Below, one piece after another: positions 15,207 through 26,275 of a DNA stretch of 64,000 nt. Below the pieces are notes generated by a model. It saw nothing but the letters and a program-made list of their open reading frames with translations, did no database searches and was not told the origin of the DNA. Both the position numbers and the translations under genes were made by a program. How positions within the stretch are numbered: the first letter of the stretch is position 1; each line of letters starts with the position of its first letter. The stretch comes from Acidimicrobiaceae bacterium (GTDB lineage: Bacteria; Actinomycetota; Acidimicrobiia; Acidimicrobiales; RAAP-2), in contig PLZW01000022.1 of NCBI GenBank assembly GCA_003153575.1, positions 80,909 to 144,908 on the forward strand, read 5' to 3'.

Positions 15207-17924
15207 TCAGGTCGACCAGGGGTCCGGCGCGGCGCCGTCGATGCCGTAGCGGGCGACGGCGGCATCCACCGCACCCTCCGGGAGGGTGCCGTCGGCCACC
15301 AGGCCCTCGAGGGCGGCGACGACCACATGGGCGGCATCCACCTCGAAGTAGCGGCGCAGCACCTCCCGGGTGTCGGACCGACCGAATCCGTCGGTGCCGA
15401 GCGAAGTGAAGTGTCGCGGCATCCACCGGGAGACCTGGTCGGGAACGGCCCGCATGAAGTCGGTGACGGCTACGATCGGGCCCTCGGAGTCGGCCAATGA
15501 CGCAGTCACGTGGGGGATGCGGGCTCCGGCGGCGGGGCGCAGGCGGTTGTGGCGGTCGACCGACAGGGCGTCCTCGCGGAGCGCCTTGTAGGAGGTGACC
15601 GACCATGACTCGGCACCCACGCCCCAGTCCTCGGCCAGCAGTCGACGGGCCTCCATGGCCGCTCGCCAGGCAGTGCCCGAAAACAGCAGCGTGACCCGGG
15701 GTGCGGACCCTGGCGCCTCATCGGGCGGGCCGGCGAAGCGGTACATGCCCCGGACCGTTCCCGTTCGCACCCGCTCCGCCTCCGACGGCTCCGTCGGGAG
15801 GGCCGGCATCACGTAGTTCTCGTTGTAAAGGGTCAGATACCAGTACCGATCTACCGGCTCGGGCCCCGTCATCTGCCGGATCCCGTCCTCCACGATGATC
15901 GCCACCTCGTGGGCGAACGCCGGGTCGTACGCCTCGACCGACGGGTAGGCGGAGGCCAGCAGGAGCGAGTGGCCGTCCTGGTGCTGGAGGCCCTCGCCAT
16001 TCAACGTGGTGCGACCAGCGGTGCAGCCCAGGAGGAACCCGCGGCCCCGGCTGTCGCCGAGGGCCCACAGGAGGTCGCCCACCCGCTGGAAGCCGAACAT
16101 CGAGTAGAGGAGGTAGCAGGGGATGAGCGCCTCGCCCCACGTGGCATACGAGGTGGCGGCGGCGGTGAAGGTGGCCGTCGCCCCGGCCTCGGTGATCCCC
16201 TCCTGCAGGACCTGCCCGGTGGCACTTTCGGCGTAGTGGAGGGCCAGGCCGGCGTCCACCGGTGTGTAGCGCTGTCCGTCCGGGGCGTAGATCTGGGCCT
16301 CACTGATGAGCGACTCGAGGCCGAAGGTGCGGGCCTCGTCGGACACGATGGGCACGATCCGCCGTCCGATGCCCGGATCGCGGGTCAGCGACCGGAGCAG
16401 CCGGGCGAACGCCATTGTCGTCGAAACCTCCTGGCGGCCGGAGCCGCCGAGGAGGTCGGCGAAGGCGTCCGGCTGGGGGTGCGGCAGAGGCCGGGCCCGG
16501 ACGACCCGCCGGGGGAGGGGACCGCCGAGGGCCAGTCGCCGCTCGGCCAGGTACTTGCCGGCCGCCGAGTCAGGTTCGGGCCGGTAGTACGGGGGGAGGT
16601 CCTCGTCGAGGTCCGCCTCGGCGATCTCCTCATGGAGGTAGAGCCGGTCGCGGAGTGTCCGGAGCTGATCTTTGGTCATCTTTTTGATCTGGTGGGTGGC
16701 GTTGCGGGCCTCGATCTCCGGACCGAGCGTCCACCCCTTGACCGTCTTGGCCAGGATGGCGGTCGGTGCACCGGTGTGCTCGGTGGCCGACCGGTAGGCG
16801 GCGTAGAGCTTGCGGTAGTCGTGGCCGCCCCGGGGGAGGCTCTGGAGCTCGGCGTCGGTCAGGTGCTCGACGAGTGCGGCCAGCCGGGGGTCGGGTCCGA
16901 AGAAATGCTCCCGGATGTAAGCCCCCGATTCGGTGGCGTACTTCTGGAACTCGCCGTCGACCGTCTCGTTCATGCGTGCCAGGAGGACCCCGTCGACGTC
17001 CCGGGCGAGCAGGTCGTCCCAGGTACGGCCCCAGATCACCTTGAGGACGTTCCAACCAGCGCCGCGCAGGGTGGCCTCGAACTCCTGGATCACCTTGCCG
17101 TTGCCGCGGACAGGACCGTCGAGCCGCTGGAGGTTGCAGTTGACCACCAGGGTGAGGTTGTCGAGGTGCTCCCGGCCGGCCATGCCGAGCAGGGCGATCG
17201 TCTCGGGCTCGTCGAACTCGCCGTCGCCGACGAATCCCCAGACCCGACTGGAGGACGTGTCGGCGAGCCCGCGGGCGGCGAGGTAGCGGGCAAGGTGCGC
17301 CTGGGCGATGGCGTTGATGGGACCGAGTCCCATCGAGACCGTCGGGAACTCCCAGAAGTCGGGCATCAGGCGGGGGTGCGGGTAGGACGACAGGCCGTCG
17401 CCTCCCACCTCGAAGCGGAAGTTGTCGAGCTGATCCTCGGCGAGGCGTCCCTCGACGAACGCCCGGGCGTAGATGCCGGGGGAGGCGTGGCCCTGAAAGT
17501 ACACCTGGTCGCCGGGCCCCCCATCGTCCTTGCCCCGGAAGAAGTGGTTGAAGCCCACCTCGTACAAGGCGGCCGAGCTGGCGTAGGTGGACAGGTGGCC
17601 GCCCACCGCCTCGGACCGGATGTTGGCCCGGACCACCATGACCGCGGCGTTCCACCGGATGAACGCGCGGATCCGCCGCTCGAGGAACTCGTCGCCGGGA
17701 AAGTCGGGCTCGGCGTCGGACGGGATGCTGTTGACGTACGGGGTCGAGACGGTGACGGGAAAGTCGACCTGGGACTGGCGGGCCCGCTCGAGGACCCGCA
17801 TCAAGAGGTAGCGGGCCCGGTTGCGACCGTGCTCGCGGACCACATCGTCGAATGCGGCCAACCACTCCTCGGTCTCCTCGCGATCGAGGTCGGGAAGTTG
17901 ATGGGCCACTCCGTCGAACAACAT
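15207..17924 (-). CDS. aceE: pyruvate dehydrogenase E1 component, homodimeric type
   Basis: FPGDEFLERRIRAFIRWNAAVMVVRAN, FVGDGEFDEPETIALLGMAGREHLDNLTLVVNCNLQRLDGPVRGNGKVIQEFE (ThDP motif), TSLGTDGFGRSDTREVLRRYFEVDA. Confidence 0.95.
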   Translation of the reverse strand: MLFDGVAHQLPDLDREETEEWLAAFDDVVREHGRNRARYLLMRVLERARQSQVDFPVTVSTPYVNSIPSDAEPDFPGDEFLERRIRAFIRWNAAVMVVRANIRSEAVGGHLSTYASSAALYEVGFNHFFRGKDDGGPGDQVYFQGHASPGIYARAFVEGRLAEDQLDNFRFEVGGDGLSSYPHPRLMPDFWEFPTVSMGLGPINAIAQAHLARYLAARGLADTSSSRVWGFVGDGEFDEPETIALLGMAGREHLDNLTLVVNCNLQRLDGPVRGNGKVIQEFEATLRGAGWNVLKVIWGRTWDDLLARDVDGVLLARMNETVDGEFQKYATESGAYIREHFFGPDPRLAALVEHLTDAELQSLPRGGHDYRKLYAAYRSATEHTGAPTAILAKTVKGWTLGPEIEARNATHQIKKMTKDQLRTLRDRLYLHEEIAEADLDEDLPPYYRPEPDSAAGKYLAERRLALGGPLPRRVVRARPLPHPQPDAFADLLGGSGRQEVSTTMAFARLLRSLTRDPGIGRRIVPIVSDEARTFGLESLISEAQIYAPDGQRYTPVDAGLALHYAESATGQVLQEGITEAGATATFTAAATSYATWGEALIPCYLLYSMFGFQRVGDLLWALGDSRGRGFLLGCTAGRTTLNGEGLQHQDGHSLLLASAYPSVEAYDPAFAHEVAIIVEDGIRQMTGPEPVDRYWYLTLYNENYVMPALPTEPSEAERVRTGTVRGMYRFAGPPDEAPGSAPRVTLLFSGTAWRAAMEARRLLAEDWGVGAESWSVTSYKALREDALSVDRHNRLRPAAGARIPHVTASLADSEGPIVAVTDFMRAVPDQVSRWMPRHFTSLGTDGFGRSDTREVLRRYFEVDAAHVVVAALEGLVADGTLPEGAVDAAVARYGIDGAAPDPWST

Positions 17925-18027
17925 CACCCCATGCTTCCACGCACCGGGTGGGGACGCGGCACACGGCGCGCCGTGCGTGGCCCCGGTTCCGGTCCCGGTC
18001 GGTCGGCGCAGCGGGCATGCTGGAGGC

Positions 18028-18534
18028 ATGGACGATCGACGCATTTCGACCGGGGCCGCACCGGTCGTGGTCTACACCGACGGCTCGTGCCTCGGGAACC
18101 CCGGTCCCGGCGGATGGGCCTGGGTCGTGGACGGTGGTCCCTCCGACTCGGGTGGTGAACCCCACACCACCAACCAGCGCATGGAAGTCACAGCCGTGAT
18201 CCGGGCCCTCGAGGCCCTGTCGGGACCGGTCCATGTGGTGAGCGATTCGACCTACGTAGTCAACTGCTTCCGCCAGAACTGGCACGCCGGCTGGATGCGG
18301 CGGGGCTGGAAGAACTCGCAGGGCAAGCCGGTGGCCAACCGCGACCTGTGGGAGGCCCTGTTCGCCCTGGCACTCGACCCCGCCCGCGCGGTCACCTTCG
18401 AATGGGTGAAGGGCCACTCGGGCGATCGGATGAACGACGTGGTCGACGCCCTCGCCACTGCGGCAGCTGGCCGCCAGGACCCCTCGGCCCCCCCGCCGGA
18501 TGCCGGTTTGGGCCAGGGGCGTCTGCTCCCGTAA
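18028..18534 (+). CDS. rnhA: ribonuclease HI
   Basis: VVYTDGSCLGNPGPGGWAWV, TNQRMEVTAVIRALEAL, VSDSTYVVNC, FEWVKGHSGDRMND. Confidence 0.93.
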   Translation: MDDRRISTGAAPVVVYTDGSCLGNPGPGGWAWVVDGGPSDSGGEPHTTNQRMEVTAVIRALEALSGPVHVVSDSTYVVNCFRQNWHAGWMRRGWKNSQGKPVANRDLWEALFALALDPARAVTFEWVKGHSGDRMNDVVDALATAAAGRQDPSAPPPDAGLGQGRLLP

Positions 18535-20394: not shown

Positions 20395-21885
20395 ATGGAG
20401 GTGGTTCCCACGGAATCCGAGGTGGCAACCGAGCAGACCGCAACGGGGGGGACGACAGGGGGGACACAGCATTTCGACGTGGTCATCGTGGGAGGTGGGC
20501 CCGGCGGGTACGCCGCCGCCCTCTACGGCGCCGCGGCCGGGCTGTCGATCGCCTTGGTGGAGCTGGACAAAGTAGGGGGAACCTGCCTCCACCGGGGGTG
20601 CGTCCCGGCGAAGGAGTTCCTGGAGACGGCCTCCGTCTACCGCACGGTGCGCTCGGCGTCCGAGTTCGGCATCGATGCCGGACCCGACCAGAAGGAGCCC
20701 ACGGTCACCTTCTCGGTCAGCCAGGATCGCAAGCAGCAGGTGGTGGGACAGCTGTTCGCCGGGCTATCGGGTCTCCTGAAGGGCCGCGGGGTGACGATCT
20801 TCAACGGCAGCGGCACGCTGCTGGCCGGCCGGCGGGTCCGGATCGCCGGGAACGACGGTGCGAACGCGGAGGTGACGGGAACCGACGTCGTCCTCGCCGC
20901 GGGCTCGGTGCCCCGCACGATCCCCGGGTTCGACATCGACGGCTCCCTGGTGCTCACCTCCGACGAGGTGCTGGCCCTCGACCGGCTGCCGGCATCGGTG
21001 GCCGTCGTCGGCGGCGGCGCCATCGGCTGCGAGTTCGCCTCGATGTTCTCCGACCTCGGGACCTCGGTAACGGTCTTCGAGGCGCTCCCGACCATCCTCA
21101 ACGGGTGCGACGAGGACGTCGTGCGTACCGTGGCCCGTTCGTTCAAGAAGCGGGGCATCGACGTCAAGGCCGGCGTCACCCTCCACGGCCATACCCCCGA
21201 CCCGTCAGGCACGGGCACCGTCGTGTCGTTCGGCGACGGCGAGCAGCTCGACGTCGAGGCCGTGGTGGTCTCGGTGGGCCGTCGACCCCGGACCGAGGGC
21301 TTGGTGTCCGACGACGCCGGGGTGACCATCGATGCGCGGGGCTTCGTAGCGGCCGACCCCTACATGCGCACCAGCGCCGAGAGTGTCTGGGCGGTGGGCG
21401 ACGTGGTGGCGGGCACTCCTCAACTCGCCCACGTGGCGTTCGCCGAAGCCATCGTCGTCATCAAGTCGATCCTGGGCGAGCCGGTGGCACCGGTCGACTA
21501 CGCGCGGGTGCCGTGGGCCATCTACTGCCATCCCGAGGTCGCCTTCGCCGGGCTGACGGAGGCGGAGGCCAAGGAAGCGGGCCTCGAGGTGGTGGTCAAG
21601 AAGGACCCCTTCGGAGGCAACAGCCGAGCCCGGATCATCGGCGAGACCGAGGGCATGGTGAAGGTCGTGGCCGAAAAGCTCCCCGACGGCACCACCGGCC
21701 GTATCCTCGGGGTCCACATGGTCGGCCCTTGGGTGACCGAGCAGCTCGGCGCCGGCTACTTGGCCGTCAACTGGGAGGCCACGGCCGAAGAGGTGGCCCA
21801 ATTCGTCCAACCGCATCCGTCGTTGTCCGAAACTTTCGGCGAGACGGTGCTCGCCCTTACCGGAAGGGGACTGCACGTTGCCTGA
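20395..21885 (+). CDS. lpdA: dihydrolipoyl dehydrogenase (E3)
   Basis: FAD GGGPGGYAAALYGAAAG, redox GGTCLHRGCVPAKEFLE, AVVGGGAIGCEFASMFSDLG, HPHPSLSET-like C-terminus (QPHPSLSETFGE). Confidence 0.94.
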   Translation: MEVVPTESEVATEQTATGGTTGGTQHFDVVIVGGGPGGYAAALYGAAAGLSIALVELDKVGGTCLHRGCVPAKEFLETASVYRTVRSASEFGIDAGPDQKEPTVTFSVSQDRKQQVVGQLFAGLSGLLKGRGVTIFNGSGTLLAGRRVRIAGNDGANAEVTGTDVVLAAGSVPRTIPGFDIDGSLVLTSDEVLALDRLPASVAVVGGGAIGCEFASMFSDLGTSVTVFEALPTILNGCDEDVVRTVARSFKKRGIDVKAGVTLHGHTPDPSGTGTVVSFGDGEQLDVEAVVVSVGRRPRTEGLVSDDAGVTIDARGFVAADPYMRTSAESVWAVGDVVAGTPQLAHVAFAEAIVVIKSILGEPVAPVDYARVPWAIYCHPEVAFAGLTEAEAKEAGLEVVVKKDPFGGNSRARIIGETEGMVKVVAEKLPDGTTGRILGVHMVGPWVTEQLGAGYLAVNWEATAEEVAQFVQPHPSLSETFGETVLALTGRGLHVA

Positions 21886-23374
21886 CGTGACCATGCCGCA
21901 GCTCGGCGAGACCGTGACCGAGGGAACCATCACCAAGTGGTACAAGGCCGTCGGCGACGCCGTCGCCCGGGACGAGCCCCTCTTCGAGGTGTCGACCGAC
22001 AAGGTCGATTCGGAGGTGCCCTCGCCCGCCGCCGGCGTGCTCACCGCCATCCTCGTCCAGGAGGGGGACACGGTGGATGTCGGAGTCGCCCTGGCTGTGA
22101 TCGACGGCGATGCGTCCGGCGAATCGACCGCTCCCGCACCTGCAACTGCGGCCGCCGCGGCGCCTGCATCCCCGGCTCCTCCTCCGGCTGCCGCGCCCGC
22201 CCCGCCCCCGGTGCTCTCCAAGCTGCCCGACGAGCCCGCACCCGCCGCGGCGCCGTCGCCCGCACCCGCCGCGGCGCCGTCGCCCGCACCCGCCGCTGCG
22301 CCGTCGCCCGCACCATCGCCTTCGCGTCCCCCGGTCGCCCCGATGGCAACAGCGACCTCCGCCGCGGCGCCGGCCGCCGCCGAGCGGGCCCGCGTGCTCT
22401 CGCCAGTCGTGCGCAAGTTGCTGGCCGACCATGCCATCGACCCGGCGACGGTGCGCGGGACCGGGCTCGAGGGTCGGATCACGCGGGCCGATGTCGAGGC
22501 GGTGATCGAGGGCGGGACACCACCGGCCTCGGTGCCGAGCATCTCCGCCGAGCGTCCGTCGGCCGCACCCTCAACGTCCGTGTCGCCGTCCGTTTCGCCG
22601 TCCGTGTCGCCGTCCCAGCCGACCCCCCGCGTCGCCTCCGCCGGCGAGACCCCGGCCGGGCCGCGGGACGAAGTCGTGCCGTTCACCAACATCCGACGTC
22701 GAACAGCCGAGCACATGGTGCGCTCCAAGGCCACCTCCGCCCACACGCTGATGGTCCGGGAGATCGACTACGAGCGAGTAGAGCAGGTCCGCAGGCTCCA
22801 CGGCGAGCGGTTCCGCGACGATGAGGGGTTCAGCCTCACCTACCTCCCCTTCGTGGCCCGGGCGACGGTCGAGGCCCTGGCCGAATTCCCCCACCTCAAT
22901 GCGTCGGTGGGCGACGACGTCCTGGTCGTCCACCACGACCTCAACCTGGGGATCGCGGTCGACCTGGACAATCAAGGCCTCATCGTCCCCGTGGTGCACA
23001 ACGCCGAGGAGCTCAACCTGCGGGGTATGGCCCGCCGTATCCGTGACGTCGCCGATCGGGCCCGCACCAAGCGCCTCAGCCTGGACGACATCAGCGGAGG
23101 TACCTTCTCGATCACCAATGCCGGACCCTTCGGCACGTTGATCACCGGGGCCATCATCAACCAGCCCCAAGTGGCGATCCTGTCCACCGACGGGGTGTCC
23201 CGCCGGCCGGTCGTCGTGGAGCTCCCCGACGGGACCGAATCGATCGGCATCCATTCGATGGGACTGGTGGCCATGAACTTCGACCACCGGGCCGTCGACG
23301 GGGCCTATGTGGCCAGGTTCTTGGCCCGGCTGGCGACCATCCTCGACGACCGCGACTGGGTCGGCGAGCTGTAG
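21878..23374 (+). CDS. 2-oxo acid dehydrogenase dihydrolipoyl acyltransferase (E2)
   Basis: Lipoyl domain (FEVSTDKVDSEVPSPAAG), E3-binding domain (VLSPVVRKLLADHAIDPATVRGTGLEGRITRADV), catalytic DHRAVDGA. Confidence 0.94.
   Translation: MPDVTMPQLGETVTEGTITKWYKAVGDAVARDEPLFEVSTDKVDSEVPSPAAGVLTAILVQEGDTVDVGVALAVIDGDASGESTAPAPATAAAAAPASPAPPPAAAPAPPPVLSKLPDEPAPAAAPSPAPAAAPSPAPAAAPSPAPSPSRPPVAPMATATSAAAPAAAERARVLSPVVRKLLADHAIDPATVRGTGLEGRITRADVEAVIEGGTPPASVPSISAERPSAAPSTSVSPSVSPSVSPSQPTPRVASAGETPAGPRDEVVPFTNIRRRTAEHMVRSKATSAHTLMVREIDYERVEQVRRLHGERFRDDEGFSLTYLPFVARATVEALAEFPHLNASVGDDVLVVHHDLNLGIAVDLDNQGLIVPVVHNAEELNLRGMARRIRDVADRARTKRLSLDDISGGTFSITNAGPFGTLITGAIINQPQVAILSTDGVSRRPVVVELPDGTESIGIHSMGLVAMNFDHRAVDGAYVARFLARLATILDDRDWVGEL
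22234..22311. repeat. 24-bp in-frame tandem repeat (GCCCGCACCCGCCGCGGCGCCGTC, about 3 copies) encoding Ala/Pro linker of E2
   Basis: Direct reading; encodes (PAPAAAPS)n. Confidence 0.9.
22577..22612. repeat. 12-bp in-frame tandem repeat (TCCGTGTCGCCG x3) encoding (SVSP)3 second E2 linker
   Basis: Direct reading. Confidence 0.9.
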
Positions 23375-23421: not shown

Positions 23422-25122
23422 ATGAGGGCCCGCTGGCTGGGGCGAGTCCCGTACGCCGAGGCCTGGGACCTGCAGCGGGCCGTGGCCGCGTGCTCCGAGG
23501 ATGACTATCTGCTGCTGGTCGAGCACGGACCGGTCTACACCCTCGGATCCCACGCCGATCCGGGTCACGTCCTCGTCGACCCGGCCACGGTCGGCGCCGA
23601 GCTGTTGGCAGTGGACCGTGGCGGTGACGTCACGTTCCACGGTCCCGGTCAGCTGGTGGGCTACCCGGTCCGTACCGTGGGCGCGGGTCCACACCGCGGT
23701 CCCGACCACGTTCGCCAGGTCGAGCAGGTGGTCATCGACGCACTGGTGGCGCTGGGAGTGCCGGCGCACCGGGTGGGCCGCATGGCCCGGTACCCAGGCG
23801 TGTGGATCGACCCGTCGGCCACCGGTGCCGGGCCGGAAGGACCGAGAAAGGTCGCCGCTATCGGGGTGCGGACCACACGCGGTCGCACGACGCACGGATT
23901 CGGACTGAATGTGATGACGGACCTCTCCTGGTTCGACCACATCGTCCCGTGCGGCATCGCCGAGCACCCGATGACGTCGCTGGCGGCCGAGGGATTCGCC
24001 GTCACCATGGCCGACGCCGTCGGGGCGGTGATCGCCGCCGCCGAAGGTGTGTGGGGTCCCATCGAGGACGTGGCCTCGGTGACCGACGGGGCCCGTAGCG
24101 CCGTACTCCACAGTCCGGTGCCGGCACGTGTCCCGGTGGCCCTCACCCATACGGCGGGCACGGCAGGGACCGCGCTCGAGCGGCGAATGGTGCGTTCCGG
24201 GGTGGACCCTTCGGCCGGCGTGGCCCTGTCGGCACGCAAGCCCGAATGGCTGCGCGTGCAGGCGACCATGTCGGACGACTACCTCGGTCTGCAGCGCAGC
24301 CTCCGCGACCTGGGCCTGGTCACCGTGTGCGAGGAGGCCGGGTGTCCCAACATCTACGAGTGCTGGGCCGACGGGACTGCCACCTTCATGATCAACGGCT
24401 CCCGCTGCACCCGGGCCTGCGCGTTCTGCCAAGTGGACACCCGCCACCCGCTCCCGCTCGACGCCGCTGAGCCCGCTCATGTGGCCGAGGCGGTGGCCCG
24501 GATGGGACTCGCCCATGCGGTCATCACCTGCGTGGCCCGGGACGACCTGGCCGACGGAGGCGCGGGCGCCTTCGCCGAGACCATCGCCCGGGTGCGCGAC
24601 CTCAGTCCTGGTACGGCCGTCGAGGTGCTGATCTCGGACTGCAAGGGCGACCGGGCCTCGCTCGAGACCATCCTGGACGCCCGGCCCGACGTCCTCAACC
24701 ACAACATCGAGACGGTGGCGCGCCTCCAGCGGACCGTGCGGCCATCGGCCGGCTATGCGCGCAGTCTCACCGTGCTGGCCCGCTCGACGGCTGCCGGACT
24801 CACCACCAAGTCGGGCATCATCCTCGGGATGGGGGAGCGTGAGGACGAGGTGCTGGCCACGTTGGCCGACCTCCGGTCCGTCGGTGTCGACATCGTGACC
24901 CTGGGTCAGTACCTCCGTCCGAGTGCCAAGCACCTGCCGGTGGCGCGGTGGTGGACGCCGGCCGAGTTCGACGCGCTACGGGAGGCCGGCACGGCGCTCG
25001 GGTTCGCCCACGTCCAGGCATCCCCGCTGACCCGATCGAGCTACCACGCCCGCGACGCGGCCGACGCCTCGTCCCGATCCTCGGCACCGACCCCCGTCCC
25101 CGTGACGATGTCGGCTCGCTGA
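23422..25122 (+). CDS. LipB-LipA fusion: lipoyl(octanoyl) transferase + lipoyl synthase in one ORF
   Basis: N-terminal LipB motifs (LLLVEHGPVYTLGS, RGGDVTFHGPGQLVGYPV, RKVAAIGVR..THGFGLNV Lys, HIVPCGI Cys) and C-terminal LipA motifs (CEEAGCPNIYEC = CX4CX5C, CTRACAFC = CX3CX2C, NHNIETV, RSSYHA). Confidence 0.93.
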   Translation: MRARWLGRVPYAEAWDLQRAVAACSEDDYLLLVEHGPVYTLGSHADPGHVLVDPATVGAELLAVDRGGDVTFHGPGQLVGYPVRTVGAGPHRGPDHVRQVEQVVIDALVALGVPAHRVGRMARYPGVWIDPSATGAGPEGPRKVAAIGVRTTRGRTTHGFGLNVMTDLSWFDHIVPCGIAEHPMTSLAAEGFAVTMADAVGAVIAAAEGVWGPIEDVASVTDGARSAVLHSPVPARVPVALTHTAGTAGTALERRMVRSGVDPSAGVALSARKPEWLRVQATMSDDYLGLQRSLRDLGLVTVCEEAGCPNIYECWADGTATFMINGSRCTRACAFCQVDTRHPLPLDAAEPAHVAEAVARMGLAHAVITCVARDDLADGGAGAFAETIARVRDLSPGTAVEVLISDCKGDRASLETILDARPDVLNHNIETVARLQRTVRPSAGYARSLTVLARSTAAGLTTKSGIILGMGEREDEVLATLADLRSVGVDIVTLGQYLRPSAKHLPVARWWTPAEFDALREAGTALGFAHVQASPLTRSSYHARDAADASSRSSAPTPVPVTMSAR

Positions 25123-25126
25123 GCCG

Positions 25127-26275
25127 ATGACCACCGGGCTCACCCCACAGGCGCTCGATGGCCGGCACAGCCGGGTGGCGCGGGTGCGGTGTCGGATGGA
25201 CGAGTTGGGTGTCGACGTCCTGCTCCTGTCCCACGGGGCCGACCTGCCCTGGCTGACCGGCTATCGGGCGATGCCGCTCGAGCGGCTCACGCTGCTGGTC
25301 CTGCCGGTGGACGGCGATCCGGTGCTCGTGGTCCCCGGTCTCGAGGCACCACGAGTGGCCGACGCCCCGGGCCTGTTCGCCCTGCGACCCTGGTCCGACG
25401 CCGAGGACCCACTGGACATCGTGGTCGAACTTCTGCGATCGACTGCATCCGGTCGCTTCGCCGTATCGGATCGGGCCTGGGCCACTTCGGTCCTGGCGCT
25501 GCAACGGCGGATGCCCGACGCCCATTGGGTGGAGGCCTCGACGGTCACCTCACCCATCCGGGCGGTCAAGGACGCCGCCGAGCTGGCCGCGCTGCGTGCC
25601 GCAGGTGCAGCAGCCGACCGGGTCGCCGCGGTGTTGCAGTCCGGCGGGATCCCCCTCGTCGGGCGGACCGAGGCATCGGTCTCCGCCGATTTGGGAGCCC
25701 TGCTCGTCGCCGAGGGCCACAGCGCGGTCAACTTCGCCATCGTCGGCAGCGGCCCCAACGCCGCCAGCCCCCATCATGAGCCCGGAGACCGGATGATCGG
25801 CCGTGACGAGACCGTGGTCTGTGACTTCGGGGGCACGCTGTCGCTGGACGGCGACGTCGGGTACTGCTCGGACATCACCCGCACGGTGGTGACCGGCACC
25901 CCGTCGGGGGAGGTGCGGGCCTGCTACGACGTCCTGCTGGCCGCTCAGCAGGCTGCAGTTGCAGCAGCACGGGCCGGGGTGACCGCCTCCTCGGTCGACA
26001 AGGTGGCCCGCGACACCATCGAGGCCGCCGGATTCGGGCATCTCTTCGTCCACCGCACCGGTCACGGCATCGGGATCGAGGAGCACGAGGATCCTTATCT
26101 GGTCACGGGGAACGACGAGGTGCTGGTGCCCGGCCACGCGTTCTCGGTGGAGCCCGGCATCTACCGGCGCGACAAGTTCGGCATGCGTCTGGAAGACATC
26201 GTGGTGATCGGGGCTGACGGAGCGCCAGAGCCGCTCAACACCGTCGACCACGACCTCGTGGTCCTGGACCACTGA
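25127..26275 (+). CDS. M24 family metallopeptidase (Xaa-Pro aminopeptidase-like)
   Basis: VCDFGGTLSLDGDVGYCSDITRTVV, HRTGHGIGIEEHEDPYL, EPGIYRRDKFGMRLEDIVV. Confidence 0.92.
   Translation: MTTGLTPQALDGRHSRVARVRCRMDELGVDVLLLSHGADLPWLTGYRAMPLERLTLLVLPVDGDPVLVVPGLEAPRVADAPGLFALRPWSDAEDPLDIVVELLRSTASGRFAVSDRAWATSVLALQRRMPDAHWVEASTVTSPIRAVKDAAELAALRAAGAAADRVAAVLQSGGIPLVGRTEASVSADLGALLVAEGHSAVNFAIVGSGPNAASPHHEPGDRMIGRDETVVCDFGGTLSLDGDVGYCSDITRTVVTGTPSGEVRACYDVLLAAQQAAVAAARAGVTASSVDKVARDTIEAAGFGHLFVHRTGHGIGIEEHEDPYLVTGNDEVLVPGHAFSVEPGIYRRDKFGMRLEDIVVIGADGAPEPLNTVDHDLVVLDH

Follow-up and report, generated by a model that had tools for sequence, protein, structure and literature searches.

A class-wide LipB-LipA fusion in Acidimicrobiia: a likely bifunctional lipoyl-assembly enzyme encoded beside its probable E2 substrate

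Introduction

For lipoic acid biosynthesis, it is of practical interest whether the octanoyl-transfer and sulfur-insertion steps are physically coupled. In Escherichia coli, LipB and LipA reportedly co-purify with 2-oxoacid dehydrogenases, and we know of no stable LipB-LipA complex. The locus analyzed here lies in a window of 64,000 nt (the whole stretch of DNA under analysis) from contig PLZW01000022.1 of an Acidimicrobiaceae bacterium, where one reading frame carries LipB and LipA. It raises three questions: whether the frame is a real fusion, how widespread it is, and whether the two halves are merely joined or packed against each other as one enzyme.

Results

The initial annotation had read the frame as a single 566-aa polypeptide with LipB followed by LipA, and the domain search bore this out (Table 1), both halves being assigned by the criterion of the NCBIfam equivalog cut-offs. 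The LipA model TIGR00510 scored 347.6 bits, above its cut-off of 310.25, and the LipB models PRK14345 (159.3 bits, cut-off 155) and TIGR00214 (125.7 bits, cut-off 83.55) were likewise passed. Among the Pfam families, LplA-B_cat matched residues 10-206 (8e-35) and Radical_SAM residues 327-483 (1e-13), while LIAS_N at residues 271-308 reached 26.2 bits, slightly below its 27-bit cut-off, and 29 bits in the genome search. From what is known of these families, the protein would be expected to have both catalytic activities.

Table 1. Features of the lipBA locus, in window coordinates.
Feature	Position	Strand	Basis and remarks
aceE, homodimeric pyruvate dehydrogenase E1	15207..18044	-	TIGR00759 1271 bits, cut-off 860
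lpd, dihydrolipoyl dehydrogenase (E3)	20395..21885	+	TIGR01350 450 bits, cut-off 408.8; overlaps E2 start by 8 nt
E2 acyltransferase of 2-oxoacid dehydrogenase, one lipoyl domain	21878..23374	+	Pfam Biotin_lipoyl, E3_binding, 2-oxoacid_dh
lipB::lipA fusion gene (lipBA)	23422..25122	+	566 aa; ATG start, TGA stop at 25120-25122, no internal stop
LipB octanoyltransferase domain, residues 1-220	23422..24081	+	Pfam LplA-B_cat, NCBIfam PRK14345/TIGR00214, PDB 1w66
LipB face of putative interface: P10, E13, D16, A20, S25 (residues 10-25)	23449..23496	+	DCA, independent-pair tests, fused-versus-split comparison
Inter-domain linker, about 45-50 aa, residues 221-270	24082..24231	+	only 226-243 predicted disordered; conserved helix 251-258 at C-terminal end
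LipA lipoyl synthase domain, residues 271-545	24232..25056	+	TIGR00510, PDB 5exi/5exk
LipA face of putative interface: R411, helix G444, A446, T450 (span 411-457)	24652..24792	+	coevolution, fused-versus-split comparison
M24 family (Xaa-Pro) peptidase	25127..26275	+	starts 4 nt after lipBA

All key residues that had been quoted from the sequence were found: K143 (RKVAAIG) and C177 (VPCGI) in the LipB half, and in the LipA half C303/C308/C314 as the CX4CX5C auxiliary-cluster set, C329/C333/C336 as the CX3CX2C radical-SAM set and S540 in RSSY. These nine catalytic residues are unchanged in 257 of 257 fusion homologues, the RGG loop of the LipB half (R66, G67, G68) does not vary in an alignment of 102 sequences, and dN/dS was 0.093 for the LipB half and 0.061 for the LipA half (24 independent pairs). 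That one half has lost or altered its activity, for example that the LipB half is a carrier-docking module only, is the least probable of the explanations weighed here and has hardly any weight: the presence of a second LplA/B-fold protein of 251 aa in the genome and LipB positions that are unlike those of standalone enzymes (R155, 25 and 43) would fit it, but the invariance of K143 and C177, the intact RGG loop and the low dN/dS of the LipB half argue against it, as does the fact that the 251-aa protein matched none of the LipB models. The gene of the latter protein (L193:5588-6343; G000:C43) lies on another contig, beside rsmH-like and HNH genes, and its product matched LplAB only weakly (37 bits, cut-off 550). 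As to residue 155 (window about 23884-23886), Arg occupies this position in 201 of 202 Acidimicrobiales-like fusions, whereas standalone LipB and the deep-clade fusions have Val, Ile or Thr there; Arg or Lys was also gained at LipA residues 328, 341, 408 and 454.

The proposed gene order lpd-E2-LipB::LipA was confirmed, all three genes lying on the forward strand, with the end of the E2 gene 47 nt upstream of lipBA. This lpd-E2-lipBA neighbourhood is maintained across the class: E2 lies directly upstream of lipBA in most class loci, in Actinomarina with a gap of 2 nt. By its family match, aceE completes the pyruvate dehydrogenase gene set near lipBA. The neighbouring E2 is probably a substrate of the fusion, and GcvH, encoded elsewhere in the genome, is likely another one. 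The genome, which is 76% complete, yielded no second LipA. An M24 peptidase gene is also found downstream of lipBA in many class loci, and the inter-domain linker of E2 contains short Ala/Pro-rich repeats (22150-22340: PAPAAAPSPAPAAAPSPAP).

The genome survey for the same architecture, named as a check in the initial annotation, revealed a class-wide fusion in Acidimicrobiia and separate genes elsewhere in Actinomycetota. Among 298 genomes of the same order a homologue was matched in 279, and most of the matches listed run end-to-end in one frame; the named relatives comprise Acidimicrobiales/Acidimicrobiia MAGs and isolates, among them Acidiferrimicrobium, Candidatus Microthrix and Candidatus Actinomarina. 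Frame analysis of the fetched loci showed that all Acidimicrobiia loci with both domains on the contig are single-frame, which gave 257 distinct fused proteins of 513-662 aa and no split gene. In the class survey LipA was present in 185 of 198 genomes, the matches listed being long frames save at contig edges. Short LipA frames within the class were considered as split genes and dismissed as contig-edge truncations, for G613, G591 and G556 after checking and for G625 judged by position alone. Since 257 distinct proteins, drawn from independent genomes, show the same unbroken architecture, an assembly artefact was rejected as the cause of the fusion. The fusion is thus common to the whole class Acidimicrobiia, comprising soil and marine bacteria, in every genome that could be examined. 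One genome (G067) carries two full-length fused copies (L296 and L309), which may reflect duplication or bin contamination.

Outside Acidimicrobiia, no LipB-LipA fusion was found among 198 sampled Actinomycetota genomes (about 180 outside the class), and lipB and lipA occupy separate frames at 35 loci. In Rhodococcus, Dietzia and Nocardioides the two genes frequently share one frame, co-directional and with 9-60 nt between them; in other Actinomycetota they are sometimes distant from each other. At three loci of family f76 in the same phylum (L129, L133 and L139) the order is reversed, with lipA before lipB. Also outside the class, four long frames with LipA (G447, G398, G385 and G319) were discarded as fusion candidates, since the lack of any Pfam domain upstream of LipA marks them as chance open frames, and in the other long frames LipB sits in a separate frame. 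Of 214 plasmid records with a match, two match 80% or more of the query at a single place; among the matches listed, none spans both domains in a single piece, each of those that reach across both consisting of two joined pieces.

When LipB and LipA were concatenated, the resulting tree placed the fused proteins on one side of a branch with an unstarred SH-aLRT of 94 and required one label change. The single-gene trees (64 rows) are less clear: LipA alone and LipB alone each need two label changes, in the LipB tree via a single long-branch split row, L135. The trees fit one fusion event. As the ancestral lipB and lipA were likely adjacent, in the same frame and 9-60 nt apart, losing one stop codon would have been enough, and the simplest account of the fusion is that a class ancestor lost the stop that separated the two neighbouring genes.

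The linker joining the two halves varies in length, the region of residues 207-270 measuring 29-135 aa in relatives, with a median of 59. Despite this variation it is under purifying selection: pooled dN/dS was 0.137 (24 independent close pairs), and over 7650 linker codons there were 0 stops in frame, with 150 and 231 for the two other frames, a count in which fused is defined as a locus without a stop, yet this rule excluded no class locus. An RRLxxAGV element at about residues 251-261, directly N-terminal to the LipA core, is conserved and was modelled by AlphaFold2 as a confident helix (pLDDT about 92). It contains Met256, encoded by the ATG at 24187, from which a separate LipA had been considered in the initial annotation. 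This internal start did not hold up: an ATG occupies the position in only 12 of 130 fused genes, most relatives having a non-start Leu codon, and Shine-Dalgarno-like motifs are not enriched before start codons in the linkers (45/322) as compared to positions deep inside LipA (232/1786). A chain split into separate LipB and LipA during or after translation, be it by a start at this in-frame ATG or by proteolysis of the linker, for which the disordered residues 226-243 could serve as site, is therefore highly improbable, the more so as the purifying selection on the linker and a putative interface acquired with the fusion (see below) also speak against it.

The AlphaFold2 model of the window protein, based on 102 sequences, had a pLDDT of 92.7, with only residues 226-243 under 50, and a pTM of 0.92. 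The same pTM was obtained for a second chain, taken from a deep clade, whose alignment of 51 sequences included no member of Acidimicrobiales; the two alignments are largely different and have 14 sequences in common. By our estimate from the pTM formula, a value of about 0.58 is expected if domain placement is undefined, and 0.92 implies a predicted inter-domain error near or below 3 Å. Coevolution points to the surfaces that are probably in contact, namely residues 10-25 of LipB with residues 411 and 444-450 of LipA. In DCA on the 257 fusions (about 174 effective sequences) E13-G444 ranked seventh of all residue pairs (z 14.5). A phylogeny-controlled test, in which co-changes were counted along independent paths of the tree, put E13-R411, P10-G444 and E13-G444 in the first three places among 7238 LipB x LipA pairs; D16-T450 co-changed at 6.8:0 in this test. 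Further DCA pairs, such as A145-L526 and V220-A479, were dropped as contacts, being weaker under phylogenetic control. Residue 13 is variable in standalone LipB, whereas 252 of the 257 fusions carry Glu or Asp there, and the favoured combinations at positions 13 and 444, (Glu,Gly) and (Asp,Ser), are those that volume compensation would give.

Furthermore, a charged residue occupies LipA positions 446, 450 and 444 in 80, 76 and 67% of the standalone enzymes, respectively, as compared to 0-1% of the fusions, in which these positions are small. This loss of charge is seen in both main clades of fusions, and LipB positions 20 and 25 likewise lose charge. Arg at LipB position 43 is kept in part of the deep clade, so that some patch positions are not fusion-specific. 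Taken together, the pTM values, the coevolving pairs and the loss of charge indicate that a buried LipB-LipA patch arose with the fusion.

These observations bear on an alternative explanation, by which both activities are present and the fusion provides only co-expression and 1:1 stoichiometry, with mobile domains and no interface. A poorly conserved linker of 29-135 aa with disordered residues 226-243 agrees with it, the more than fourfold range in linker length suits a mere tether too, and the adjacent genes of Rhodococcus and Dietzia, taken as the ancestral state, mean that one stop loss suffices. However, the pTM of 0.92 in both modelled chains, the coevolving patch, the loss of charge on LipA helix 444-450 in fusions only and the conserved linker helix with a pLDDT of about 92 argue against mobile domains, and we regard this explanation as unlikely.

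Discussion

We consider it likely, on the basis of sequence comparison and structure prediction, that the fusion is a bifunctional enzyme of lipoyl assembly whose two domains meet at a dedicated interface and whose gene lies next to lpd and to the gene of its probable E2 substrate. We propose that the LipB domain would take octanoate from octanoyl-ACP onto Cys177 and pass it on to a lipoyl carrier, namely to the lysine of the adjacent E2 or of GcvH, and that the radical-SAM LipA domain would then insert two sulfurs into the same protein-bound octanoyl group. The domains would be packed rather than loosely strung, LipB helix 10-24 resting against residues 411 and 444-450, the N-terminal ends of outer helices in LipA, so that the interface may keep the LipB site beside LipA and a carrier octanoylated on one half close to the other. 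The LipA side of the patch lies at the N-terminal ends of the outer barrel helices, and in (beta-alpha) barrels this is the side on which the active site is found. The regions of human LIAS that contact the H-protein, 66-110 and 311-314 (PMC12246082), align to about 263-307 and 499-502 of the fusion, which means that the linker helix would enter right at the carrier-binding belt.

A more far-reaching version of the proposed bifunctional enzyme is a rigid protein with two active sites, its interface evolved with the fusion, in which one lipoyl domain is octanoylated and sulfurated per encounter, the carrier remaining unreleased. The predicted fixed arrangement and the coevolved patch may lend indirect support to such a hand-over between active sites; we put the rigid version forward tentatively, as a possibility that is not the favoured one. 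With LipB and LipA joined in a single chain and specific residues at their putative interface, the class offers a natural single-protein test of coupling and a structural target. The fusion is additionally useful as a class marker for annotation pipelines, because such proteins are easily labelled as LipA only or LipB only.

The components, the pathway and an LplA-LipA fusion are already known; no description of a LipB-LipA fusion was found in the open literature searched, and where a 2023 GTDB-wide survey of lipoate assembly deals with fusion, it does so for LplA/LplB rather than for LipB-LipA (PMC10332631). In the LplA-LipA fusion family NF053790 (bifunctional lipoate-protein ligase/lipoyl synthase), too, LipA shares its chain with an LplA/B-fold enzyme that acylates the carrier. 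However, the family's N-terminal half is an ATP-dependent ligase, whereas that of the present fusion is a predicted ACP-dependent octanoyltransferase, and the NF053790 model scored 348 bits (cut-off 800) on the fusion, with model positions 331-605 covering the LipA half only.

LipB (1w66) and LipA (5exi, 5exj, 5exk) of Mycobacterium tuberculosis share folds, catalytic residues and pathway with the fusion, with sequence matches of 2.6e-34 to 1w66 and 3.4e-90 to 5exi and structure matches of TMt 0.78 for LipB and 0.91-0.95 for LipA. They are two proteins lacking the linker helix, whereas the fusion is one chain with the helix, and M. tuberculosis LipA has Thr/Arg/Gly at positions 444/446/450, where the fusions have small residues. 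The adjacent lipB-lipA genes of other Actinomycetota (Rhodococcus, Dietzia and Nocardioides) show the gene order of the fusion, often in the same frame, and likely represent the ancestral arrangement, but they have a separate stop and start, and their LipA carries an N-terminal extension of its own (EGRKLLRLEVRNAETPIERKP). Human LIAS, known in complex with the H-protein (PDB 8ugo, 8v0j; PMC12246082), is a LipA homologue like the LipA half; it is a standalone mitochondrial enzyme that relies on separate LIPT2 for octanoylation, whereas the fusion of Acidimicrobiia carries both domains in one chain.
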